Shown here: positions 1,989 to 5,493 of the stretch, piece by piece | How the letters are laid out: each line of letters opens with the position of its first letter | Position numbering within the stretch: the stretch's first letter is position 1 | Assembly: GCA_027484125.1 (NCBI GenBank) | Contig: JAIXUI010000010.1 | Location: 1 to 49,443 of the forward strand | Direction of reading: 5' to 3' | Length of the DNA stretch: 49,443 bases | Source: Bacteroidota bacterium | GTDB lineage: Bacteria; Bacteroidota; Bacteroidia; UBA7662; JAIXUI01 | Notes under the pieces: generated by a model | Seen by the model: the letters and a program-made list of their open reading frames with translations, nothing else | Told to the model about the DNA's origin: nothing | Database searches by the model: none | Position numbers and translations under genes: made by a program

Positions 1989-4988
1989 TTACGCCTTTTT
2001 GTTTCGGTTTCTCCAATTACCAAAATCGAGTACTACAGATGCAGCAACGAAAATAGAGGAGTACGTACCAACAATAAGACCGATTAAGAGCGAGAAGCTA
2101 AATCCACGGATTACCTCGCCTCCAAAGAACAATAGAATCACCACGGTCAACATGGTGGCCAATGCAGTATTGATGGTTCGGCTCAATGTAGCGTTCAAGG
2201 CATCGTTGATCACTTCTGCATCATCTTTTGCTCCATGGTGTAAGGAGAAGTACTCACGCAAGCGGTCATAAACTACTACGGTATCGTTGATGGAGTAACC
2301 GATGATGGTAAGAATAGCAGCTATCAAATGCTGGTCAATCTCCAAGGAGAAAGGCATAATCTTCCATAATAGTGAAACAAACGCCAACATCACCAAAACG
2401 TCGTGAATTAACGCGGCTGCTGCTCCAATGGAATATTCAAGTTTGCGGAAACGAATGAGAATGTAGATACAGATTCCAACAATACCGAAAATGATAGAGT
2501 AAACTGCGGAAATCTTAATATCATCCACGATGGTTGGTCCAACTTTCTGAGAACTTAGTACGACTTTAGAAGCGAAGTCTTCATAAGACATGTTGGCAGG
2601 AATAAGCGATTTTAGACCTTCGTAAAGCTTTGTTTCCGCTTTAAGGTCAGCCTCATCAGATTTATCATTGATGAGATAAGCAGTAGTGATTCTGAATTTG
2701 TTATCGCCGCCAAAGGTTTTCACCTCTGGACGTGAACCCATGGATTCACCCAGCATTTCGCGTACTTCAGAAGAGCTAATGTCTTTATCCAATTGAACCA
2801 CGTAAGAACGGCCTCCTTTGAAGTCAACGCCTAAGTTGAAGCCATTCAAGAACATAGAACCGATACCGGCAAGAATAATCACACTGGAGGTGATGTAGAA
2901 AATCTTGCGGTTTTTAATGAACTGAATTTTCTCAACCTTGAAAAGGTTGCGGCTTAGTGGGGTATCGAAATTGATTGGTTTCTCTTTTGCAACTCGAGCG
3001 TCTATGATCAAGCGAGTGATGAATATCGCTGAGAACATGGAGCTGAAAATACCGATGATCAAAGTAGTAGCAAAGCCTTGGATAGGTCCGGTACCGAAGG
3101 TAAACAGGATAATCGCGGTAAGCAGAGTCGTTAAGTTAGAGTCGATAATCGCAGAATAAGCGTGGGTAAATCCTTCGATGATGGCCATTCGAAGTGATTT
3201 TCCGTTTTCGAGTTCTTCTTTGATACGCTCATAAATAAGTACGTTAGCATCCACCGACATACCCATAGAGAGCACGATACCGGCGATACCTGGAAGGGTT
3301 AGAACTGCCTGAAGCGAAGCAAGTACGCCAAAAGTGAAGAACAAGTTGGCAAGGATAGCAATACTAGCAATGTTACCCGCGGTTGAATAATACATAGCCA
3401 TATACAGAATGACTACCAGTAGGCCTGCGATGGATGCAATTAAACCGGAGTTGATGGCTTCTTTACCAAGGGTTGGACCTACTACTGCTTCTTCAACAAT
3501 TTTTGCAGGGGCAGGAAGTTTACCAGCTTCGAGGATGTTGGCTAAGTCTTTTGCTTCATCTACAGTGAAGTTTCCGGAAATAGAAGATACACCACCTGAA
3601 ATTTCGCTATTTACATTAGGGAAAGAATAAACGTAGTTATCAAGAACGATAGCAACGCTTTTTCCGATGTTGTCTGCTGTTAAACGGCGCCAAACTTTAG
3701 ACCCTTCCGGGTTCATAGTCATGGTCACTTCGATTTGTCCGAAGTTATCGATGTTCTCACGAGCATTGGTAATCACGTCGCCTTCAAGTGGAGCACGATC
3801 AGAATTGCCTTTTTTCTTAATTGCTATTAACTGGAAGAAACGTTCACCATCACCAACTCCCTTAGCAGTCCACAGCAAACGAAGGTTTTTAGGCAACATC
3901 ATGCGCACATCTTCGCGTGCAAACATGGCATTGATGTCTGCTGTATCAATCGCCATGGCATAACCAATGACCGGTCCATCAGGAACGGTACCTTTTTGTG
4001 GATCAACGTTGGGCTGAAGTTTAGCAAACAACGGATTTTGACGGATGGCTTCTTCTTGGCTAAGACTTGCGGAATCCTTACCGGTTTTCGCACCACCTTT
4101 CCCAATTTTAGACATCAAACTTGAGCCAGCTTTCGCACTGTCTTGTCCGGAATCTGATGCCGCAACTGCGGTTGTATCGGTGGAGCTGATTTTTCCGGTT
4201 TTCTTCTCCAGCTCATTGCGCTGTCCGAGGTATTTGTTTACATCACCAATTCTTGCAAGCACTTCACCTGCGTCATAAGTTTCCCAGAATTCCAAACTTG
4301 CGGTTCCTTGGAGGAGCTTACGAACACGACGTGGGTCTTTAACACCTGGAAGTTCAATGATAATTCTTCCGGTACCTTGCTGGCGCTGAATGTTTGGCTG
4401 AGTTACTCCGAACTTATCGATACGGGTACGAAGAATCTCAAAGGAACGATCGATGGCGCGTTCACTTTCCTGACGAAGCACTTTCTCTACTTCAGCGTCC
4501 GGGGTGTTGAACTCAATCTTGCCTGCATTTTCGCGGGTAGCGAAAACAGAAGCAAGCTTGGCATTGGGATCAACCTTTTTAAAGGATTGAACAAACAACG
4601 TAACAAAGTCTGCCTGACTGCTTTCTTGAGCTTTCACTGCAAGCGCCATAGCCTCATTGAATGTGGAATCAGTGCTATAGCCTGACAATGCGCGGATTAC
4701 GTCAGAGACAGAAACCTCCATCACTACGTTCATACCGCCCTTAAGGTCAAGACCTAAGTTGAGTTGTTTTTCACGAGCTTCTTTGTAGCTCACTTTCCAG
4801 AAGCCAACATCGAAGATGCTTTTATCGGCTACTGAATCAAGATAGCGCTCTTCTTTTGCCGCGTCGCCATTGGCGTACTCGCGTGCATCAGATTCTACCA
4901 TGGAGGCCATGAAGGTGTACGACAATTGGTACAAACAGGCCACCACGAGCGCATAAAGGAAGAATTTAACTAGTCCTTTTGCTTTCAT
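1989..4988 (-). CDS. secDF: Protein translocase subunit SecDF (fused SecD and SecF)
   Basis: A 999-residue single-chain SecDF, the usual form and length in Bacteroidota. It uses the proton motive force to pull preproteins out of the SecYEG channel on the periplasmic side. The SecD half has a first membrane helix near residues 8-30, the motif LGLDLKGGMNVVMEV, and a large periplasmic P1 region. A membrane domain from about residue 510 includes GMSVDANVLIYERIKEE (about 575-591) with the conserved proton-relay aspartate. The SecF half begins near residue 700 with LGVDFKGGRSYVVQ and contains IIGYSINDTVVVYDRL. A long linker rich in K, S and D (about 265-315) separates parts of P1. The small secretory gene at 5068-5457 lies 79 bp upstream with three inverted repeats between them, so expression may be controlled post-transcriptionally. 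Confidence 0.97.
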   Translation of the reverse strand: MKAKGLVKFFLYALVVACLYQLSYTFMASMVESDAREYANGDAAKEERYLDSVADKSIFDVGFWKVSYKEAREKQLNLGLDLKGGMNVVMEVSVSDVIRALSGYSTDSTFNEAMALAVKAQESSQADFVTLFVQSFKKVDPNAKLASVFATRENAGKIEFNTPDAEVEKVLRQESERAIDRSFEILRTRIDKFGVTQPNIQRQQGTGRIIIELPGVKDPRRVRKLLQGTASLEFWETYDAGEVLARIGDVNKYLGQRNELEKKTGKISSTDTTAVAASDSGQDSAKAGSSLMSKIGKGGAKTGKDSASLSQEEAIRQNPLFAKLQPNVDPQKGTVPDGPVIGYAMAIDTADINAMFAREDVRMMLPKNLRLLWTAKGVGDGERFFQLIAIKKKGNSDRAPLEGDVITNARENIDNFGQIEVTMTMNPEGSKVWRRLTADNIGKSVAIVLDNYVYSFPNVNSEISGGVSSISGNFTVDEAKDLANILEAGKLPAPAKIVEEAVVGPTLGKEAINSGLIASIAGLLVVILYMAMYYSTAGNIASIAILANLFFTFGVLASLQAVLTLPGIAGIVLSMGMSVDANVLIYERIKEELENGKSLRMAIIEGFTHAYSAIIDSNLTTLLTAIILFTFGTGPIQGFATTLIIGIFSSMFSAIFITRLIIDARVAKEKPINFDTPLSRNLFKVEKIQFIKNRKIFYITSSVIILAGIGSMFLNGFNLGVDFKGGRSYVVQLDKDISSSEVREMLGESMGSRPEVKTFGGDNKFRITTAYLINDKSDEADLKAETKLYEGLKSLIPANMSYEDFASKVVLSSQKVGPTIVDDIKISAVYSIIFGIVGICIYILIRFRKLEYSIGAAAALIHDVLVMLAFVSLLWKIMPFSLEIDQHLIAAILTIIGYSINDTVVVYDRLREYFSLHHGAKDDAEVINDALNATLSRTINTALATMLTVVILLFFGGEVIRGFSFSLLIGLIVGTYSSIFVAASVVLDFGNWRNRNKKA

Positions 4989-5000
4989 GGGTTGAATTAA

Positions 5001-5066
5001 AGTTTAAACTATTGGAAATCAGGCTTTTGACCGAAAGCCTGGAACGTCGAACTAAAAGATTAGTTC
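5001..5066 (-). promoter_or_regulatory. Cluster of inverted repeats between the RAP-ending leader gene and secDF
   Basis: Three inverted repeats fill the 79-bp gap. GAACTAA (5049-5055) pairs with TTAGTTC (5060-5066) and starts only 2 nt after the upstream stop codon. AGGCTTT (5021-5027) pairs with AAAGCCT (5034-5040). AGTTTAAACT (5001-5010) is a palindrome 13 nt before the secDF ATG. None is followed by a T run, so they do not look like ordinary terminators. A ribosome halted at the upstream stop would cover the 5-prime arm of the first hairpin. A role in controlling secDF translation is inference. Confidence 0.5.
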
Positions 5067-5067
5067 A

Positions 5068-5457
5068 TCACGGAGCCCTGAATGGGCGTGTACTGACGCT
5101 TATGGTGGAAAGCATCAAATCCCTGAATCTGAAACGGTTAATGGATTTTACCGGTCCAATTTGTGAAATAGAAAATTCAGGAATAGCTTGTAAAGAAACA
5201 AGTGTCAGAAACTTAATGTGGAAGGTGGGAAGAAGAACATTGGCACCGTGTGAAGCAGATACATACCACTCTGTTGGCTTAAGAGGAAAAGATTCTCTTT
5301 CTTGATTTTCCTCAGCCTGATTCTTGATTTTAACTTCCTTTTTAATAAAAGCGTTAGATTTTTCTTCAAATCCGGAAAGATTAAAAGAAAAAGCCATGAA
5401 CAACATGATGGCCATCAATAACCAGCTTGTCCATTTTTTTAATGCTTTCATTTTCAT
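5068..5457 (-). CDS. Small Sec-targeted protein ending in RAP; candidate translation-arrest leader of secDF
   Basis: 129 residues from the ATG at 5457 (another ATG at 5451 is possible). The N-terminus is a signal or anchor sequence: basic residues up to MKALKKW, then the hydrophobic stretch WLLMAIMLFMAFSF, with no clear AxA cleavage site. A charged region (KKEVKIKNQAEENQERE) and a soluble tail follow, and the chain ends STRPFRAP immediately before the stop, which is doubled (TGA TGA). R-A-P and R-A-G are the core residues of SecM (RAGP) and of the RAPP/RAPG arrest peptides found upstream of Sec and YidC genes. VemP plays this part for secDF in Vibrio. A strong promoter lies directly upstream, which supports a real gene. 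No enzymatic domain is recognised. The arrest function is inference. Confidence 0.65.
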   Translation of the reverse strand: MKMKALKKWTSWLLMAIMLFMAFSFNLSGFEEKSNAFIKKEVKIKNQAEENQERESFPLKPTEWYVSASHGANVLLPTFHIKFLTLVSLQAIPEFSISQIGPVKSINRFRFRDLMLSTISVSTRPFRAP

Positions 5458-5463
5458 TCGGCG

Positions 5464-5493
5464 CAAATATAGGCGAATTGATGTCTTAGACAA
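5464..5493 (-). promoter_or_regulatory. Bacteroidota-type promoter of the secDF leader gene
   Basis: On the minus strand TTG (5491-5493) is followed by exactly 19 nt and then TATATTTG (5464-5471), a perfect match to the Bacteroidota TTG-N19-TAnnTTTG promoter. It overlaps the 3-prime end of udk. Transcription should start about 4-5 nt after the final G, only 2-3 nt before the ATG at 5457, so the message would be almost leaderless. Confidence 0.75.

Follow-up and report, generated by a model that had tools for sequence, protein, structure and literature searches.

A probable Pro-stop arrest leader peptide upstream of secDF in a Bacteroidota bacterium and its positional counterparts in related genomes

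The closest described systems come from the survey of 30,175 genomes by Fujiwara et al. (2024), in which 396 secDF upstream ORFs (uORFs), found mainly in three Bacteroidota orders and ending in a conserved proline, make up the group uDF_NAP-stop (PMC10987492). A tested member of this group accumulates peptidyl-tRNA, needs its stop codon and depends on residues −3 and −1, the toeprint places the stop codon in the A site, and the authors grouped the six clusters by their terminal proline (PMC10987492). Pro-stop termination arrest in Bacteroidota with a Sec gene downstream is also represented by uA_NSP-stop, which precedes secA in Sphingobacteriaceae (PMC10987492). In Vibrio, VemP stalls in elongation, and its nascent chain is then compacted and helical (PMC5449182). 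The cryo-EM model of RAPP-type arrest ascribes the stalling to the nitrogen of the A-site proline, with the third residue of the motif, also a proline, in the P site (PMC10951233). Meanwhile homologues of CliM, a leader found in Clostridia upstream of yidC, stall either in elongation or at the stop codon (PMC13183943).

The window, i.e. the whole stretch of 49,443 nucleotides that was analysed, harbours a small frame directly upstream of secDF which invites comparison with these systems. The features of the two genes are as follows:

5068–5457, minus strand: leader-peptide ORF, 129 aa plus TGA, a candidate AP-stop arrest peptide (AP-stop counterparts found by position in all 17 genomes of the order with assembled upstream DNA; close relatives show purifying selection)
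5368–5433, minus strand: hydrophobic signal/anchor segment, residues 9–30 (hydropathy only, 13-residue windows up to 2.5)
5071–5079, minus strand: terminal Arg-Ala-Pro codons (A-P at −2/−1 in 17/17), of which the Pro codon 5071–5073 is the presumed P-site codon
5065–5070, minus strand: tandem TGA TGA read from the sequence, the first TGA being the presumed A-site codon
1989–4988, minus strand: secDF, a fused SecD-SecF of 999 aa and the presumed regulated gene (Pfam SecD_SecF_C, E 3.9e-75, and others)

The leader ORF begins with an ATG at 5457 (an in-frame TTG further upstream would give 141 aa) and its product ends in ...STISVSTRPFRAP (STRPFRAP), followed at once by TGA TGA, the first TGA occupying 5068–5070. 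The start of secDF at 4988 lies on the same strand, 79 nt past this first stop. At the other end of the peptide the lysine-rich stretch MKMKALKKW stands ahead of the hydrophobic segment, which is separated from the stall site by a spacer of about 97 residues, a length within the fit for Sec-type monitoring substrates (PMC10987492). Searches of Pfam, NCBIfam and PDB with the leader peptide returned no family match (best E 1.2, none and 0.56, respectively), which is in favour of the leader-peptide reading. The description given in the earlier note, that of a small frame just before secDF with a signal-like N-terminus, no recognisable domain and the end STRPFRAP followed by TGA TGA, is thus confirmed from sequence, hydropathy and family searches.

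As a tblastn search with the 129-aa peptide gave no convincing homologue in 60 relatives, counterparts were sought by their position before secDF instead: SecDF was located in the relatives, the DNA preceding it was taken and all frames in this DNA were read. In the window's order the upstream DNA is assembled in 17 genomes from 6 genera and 3 families, and each of them has, 74–167 nt before secDF, a signal-bearing ORF with an x-Ala-Pro-stop end. By the same criterion such an ORF was found at 27 of 30 loci of a second order (the order of genome G034) and at 9 of 16 loci of a third (the order of G021), the last count having been obtained with fixed criteria before several secDF starts were relocated, so that it omits two further RAP-stop members (L304 and L305) as well as the NAPP and RAPQ forms. 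At the 194 other Bacteroidia loci no AP-stop leader stands before secDF, and 2 of 621 control ORFs of at least 200 aa end in AP. In the SecDF tree the placement of the window's order among the groups has a support of 0.18–0.28, which is too weak to decide between one and several origins of the Pro-stop leaders.

In the window's order the leaders end in FRAP (the window itself), SLAP, ALAP, AQAP, TRAP, GRAP or SQAP. Only A-P-stop is invariant there, position −3 being occupied by R in seven, by Q in seven and by L in three genomes; the corresponding residues are N (18), Q (5), K (3) and R (1) in the second order and R (6), L (2) and A (1) in the third. The notion of RAP as the conserved core therefore stands for its Ala-Pro and falls for its arginine. 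The stop codon itself varies across the 17 same-order genomes (TGA in 6, TAA in 8, TAG in 3), and the tandem arrangement is not conserved among these relatives. Between genera the whole leader proteins, 112 to 177 aa long with start codons chosen by eye, have no detectable similarity and their middle cannot be confidently aligned, but the ends align. In close same-order pairs outside the window's own family, dN/dS over the leader ORF amounts to ∼0.1–0.3, and the last 20 codons show no nonsynonymous versus 4–8 synonymous changes (pairs G008/G004 and G003/G001). Judged from these comparisons, the leaders of these relatives have a conserved end under strong purifying selection and a drifting middle. 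A kept end, a drifting middle and a constant place before secDF were the pattern to be looked for according to the earlier note, and the outcome is clearly positive.

The same data bear on the idea that the leader is an ordinary small protein of the secDF operon, for instance an accessory Sec factor, whose Ala-Pro end serves as a binding tail and not as a stall signal. Purifying selection along much of the ORF in close relatives would suit such a protein, as would the stretch KINKxSFYxHYFKVIEEVExRNSQ, which the uORFs of the third order keep far from their end. However, between genera both sequence and length become unrecognisable and A-P-stop is kept; in two genomes of family f50 the core is NAPP and is extended by short tails (IF, SAQ) that are unrelated, so that what is conserved does not have to stand at the very C-terminus; and the published relatives that were tested do stall ribosomes (PMC10987492). 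An ordinary protein is, accordingly, a very unlikely explanation.

The proposal of a secDF arrest leader peptide is supported by the positional conservation of the AP-stop end together with the drifting middle, and by this, and by analogy with the published group, the leader ORF very probably encodes a Sec-monitoring arrest peptide of the Bacteroidota Pro-stop type that would stall the ribosome at termination. Like uDF_NAP-stop, it is a small co-directional secDF uORF of unassigned family in Bacteroidota, has an N-terminal localisation signal (a signal or transmembrane segment by hydropathy) and a long variable spacer of more than 30 residues, and ends in an invariant Pro right before the stop (17/17). 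It differs from the published clusters, which were compared by description, in having Arg in place of Asn at position −3, where its order has R, Q or L. The strict NAP motif is absent for this reason; since the published clusters were grouped by the terminal Pro, Arg at −3 excludes the leader from the strict motif and not from the Pro-stop class. Nevertheless, two points count against arrest: residue −3, which matters in the tested NAP-stop peptide, is not the Asn found there, and computation revealed no RNA switch that would join a stall to secDF translation.

In the scheme that we favour, the leader would be made as an exported protein, and once its C-terminal (R/Q/L)-Ala-Pro lies in the peptidyl transferase centre and the A site is occupied by the stop codon, hydrolysis by the release factor would be inhibited, so that the ribosome stalls; both the stall and its register are drawn by analogy with the uDF_NAP-stop experiments and toeprints (PMC10987492). 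Engagement by the Sec machinery would pull the nascent chain and free the ribosome, hence the stall would persist only when export is slow, and a persistent stall would, to judge from the rest of the family, raise secDF expression. Stalling at termination had been put forward as a new variation, but it is already known, since uDF_NAP-stop and uA_NSP-stop, both with the stop codon in the A site, were published in 2024 (PMC10987492). The present locus differs from uA_NSP-stop in the gene downstream and in the motif, and no Pro-stop uORF precedes secA in this genome, where a long lipA-like open frame stands instead; the DNA upstream of yidC lies beyond the end of its contig. VemP resembles the leader as an exported arrest peptide regulating secD2-secF2 and differs from it in having no C-terminal motif in common. 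If the assignment is right, Pro-stop secretion monitors would extend to a whole order with an (R/Q/L)AP-stop end (17/17 versus 0/194 outside the three orders).

The leader ORF is preceded by a candidate promoter:

5464–5493, minus strand: Bacteroidota-type promoter TTG-N19-TATATTTG (pattern matches), the −7 element of which ends 6 nt before the ATG of the leader ORF

A search of both strands of the 49-kb window finds the pattern TTG-N17-24-TAnnTTTG only twice, in keeping with the suggestion that the leader has a promoter of its own. Relatives of family f2 carry the same element at −14. As the −7 element ends so close to the ATG, both here and in these relatives, the leader mRNA may be nearly leaderless. 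No promoter pattern was found between the leader ORF and secDF in this genome; hence both genes are probably carried by one transcript.

The leaders of the third order allow the arrest motif itself to be considered. Their common N-terminal stretch, quoted above, marks these uORFs as homologous, and most of them end in RAP-stop or LAP-stop. Three have a different residue after the A-P core: in two f50 genomes (L297 and L298) the leaders end in NAPPIF and NAPPSAQ, respectively, 79–83 nt before secDF, and in one f4 genome (L286) the end is RAPQA, 192 nt before secDF. Among orthologous leaders the A-P core can therefore be followed by a stop, by Pro or by Gln, which suggests, as far as sequences go, that termination (RAP-stop) and elongation (NAPP, RAPQ) stalls may have interconverted within the secDF leaders. 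In one further homologous leader (L284), which carries KINPRHFYTHYFRMIEEINDRNSQ and lies 129 nt before secDF, the end is YIPLSFR, and the arrest end seems to have been lost or replaced.

Such leaders bring the RAPP/RAGP-type peptides (ApdA, ApdP, ApcA, the RQH family and SecM) close to the Pro-stop type. Both are encoded by signal-bearing uORFs of Sec genes and have R/Q-A/G-P in the same register, with the third residue in the P site. The four-residue elongation-arrest motif R/Q/H-A/G-P-P/G is, however, absent from the window's leader, where RAP is followed by TGA: the A site would hold a stop codon and no prolyl nitrogen would be available in it, so that the chemistry of the release factor must be blocked instead. 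Tentatively, and with slightly less than even confidence, the Pro-stop and RAPP/RQH arrest peptides may be regarded as one class, in which a P-site (R/Q/N/K/L)-(A/G)-P core would block the peptidyl transferase centre whatever the A site holds. One must bear in mind that the RAPP model rests on the nitrogen of the A-site proline and would need to be extended for an RAP core that blocks release factors. A similar split between elongation and the stop codon exists among the CliM homologues, as the NAPP and RAP-stop forms of the third order would show, but the CliM motif (KYxIW) is unrelated, and there the penultimate Leu blocks the GGQ loop of the release factor (PMC13183943). In the 2024 survey the Pro-stop motifs were described as seemingly unrelated to the known ones, and NAPP is absent from its main text (PMC10987492). 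Should RAP-stop and NAPP work alike, one short core would account for arrest both in elongation and at termination in different phyla; that survey did not draw this link.

How a stall would act on secDF depends on the gap between the two genes, which contains three inverted repeats:

5048–5067, minus strand: hairpin 1, found by folding; a ribosome stalled at the stop would cover its 5' arm; the hairpin includes the second TGA
5020–5041, minus strand: hairpin 2, an 8-bp perfect stem CAGGCUUU/AAAGCCUG with no U tract, not terminator-like
5001–5010, minus strand: perfect palindrome, seen in the sequence of the gap between leader ORF and secDF

All the elements that the earlier note had listed here, a hairpin starting 2 nt past the stop as well as two more inverted repeats, are present, except that stem 1 runs from 5067 and so takes in the second TGA. 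According to the same note, the stalled ribosome would open the hairpin and so raise secDF translation; the secDF start would thereby be exposed, as in SecM or uDF_RQH_Enterobacterales. This concerns only the step downstream of the stall and is compatible with arrest as such. That hairpin 1 begins within the footprint of the stalled ribosome, that the gap folds better than all of 200 shuffled sequences (z = −3.4), and that arrest-dependent induction of secDF2 through a stem-loop has been shown for another family (PMC10987492) are consistent with such a switch. However, the secDF ATG lies ∼31 nt past hairpin 2 in an AT-rich stretch, and when the footprint was masked, the unpaired probability of the secDF start did not change (0.37 in both states; 0.55 against 0.53 for the wider region). 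Masking over 51 loci (the window and 50 others) likewise gave no shift in accessibility (Wilcoxon p 0.14, 0.66 and 0.91 in the three orders), the secDF start did not pair with the footprint region consistently more than in shuffled sequences, and predicted accessibility gave no sign of SecM/uDF_RQH-type gating, in which a structure masks the start until the stalled ribosome opens it. The hairpins are not conserved, intergenic z-scores being mostly near zero in the relatives, and a search of Rfam gave a sub-threshold chance match only. The ability of hairpin opening to raise secDF translation here seems, on this evidence, quite improbable.

In TnaC, a Pro-stop stall is situated just before an untranslated gap, and the Pro-stop stall supposed here, with the untranslated gap behind it, would match that geometry. 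A stall at the stop codon would then shield the mRNA from Rho or RNase, so that the secDF mRNA survives and is otherwise lost; this, too, concerns the downstream step only and agrees with the arrest reading. C exceeds G in the first 60 nt past the stop in all three orders (234/184, 340/282 and 119/96), although the bias is mild, and terminator-like hairpins occur in 7 of 27 gaps of the second order versus 0.7 expected, but in none of 15 gaps of the window's order. Since masking had no effect and such hairpins do exist in the second order, control through Rho or through mRNA decay is a live alternative for the downstream step, though still a rather unlikely one. The gaps also hint, at the level of sequence, at transcription attenuation in the second order and not in the window's order, where the search for an intrinsic terminator or attenuator yielded none in 15 gaps.

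Six of the seven second-order gaps with terminator-like hairpins belong to loci L254, L255, L256, L258, L265 and L268. On the other side of secDF, within 240 bp of its 3' end, there is a 42-bp tandem array (1757–1910) of 3.6 copies with 96% matches and a sub-period of 21 bp.
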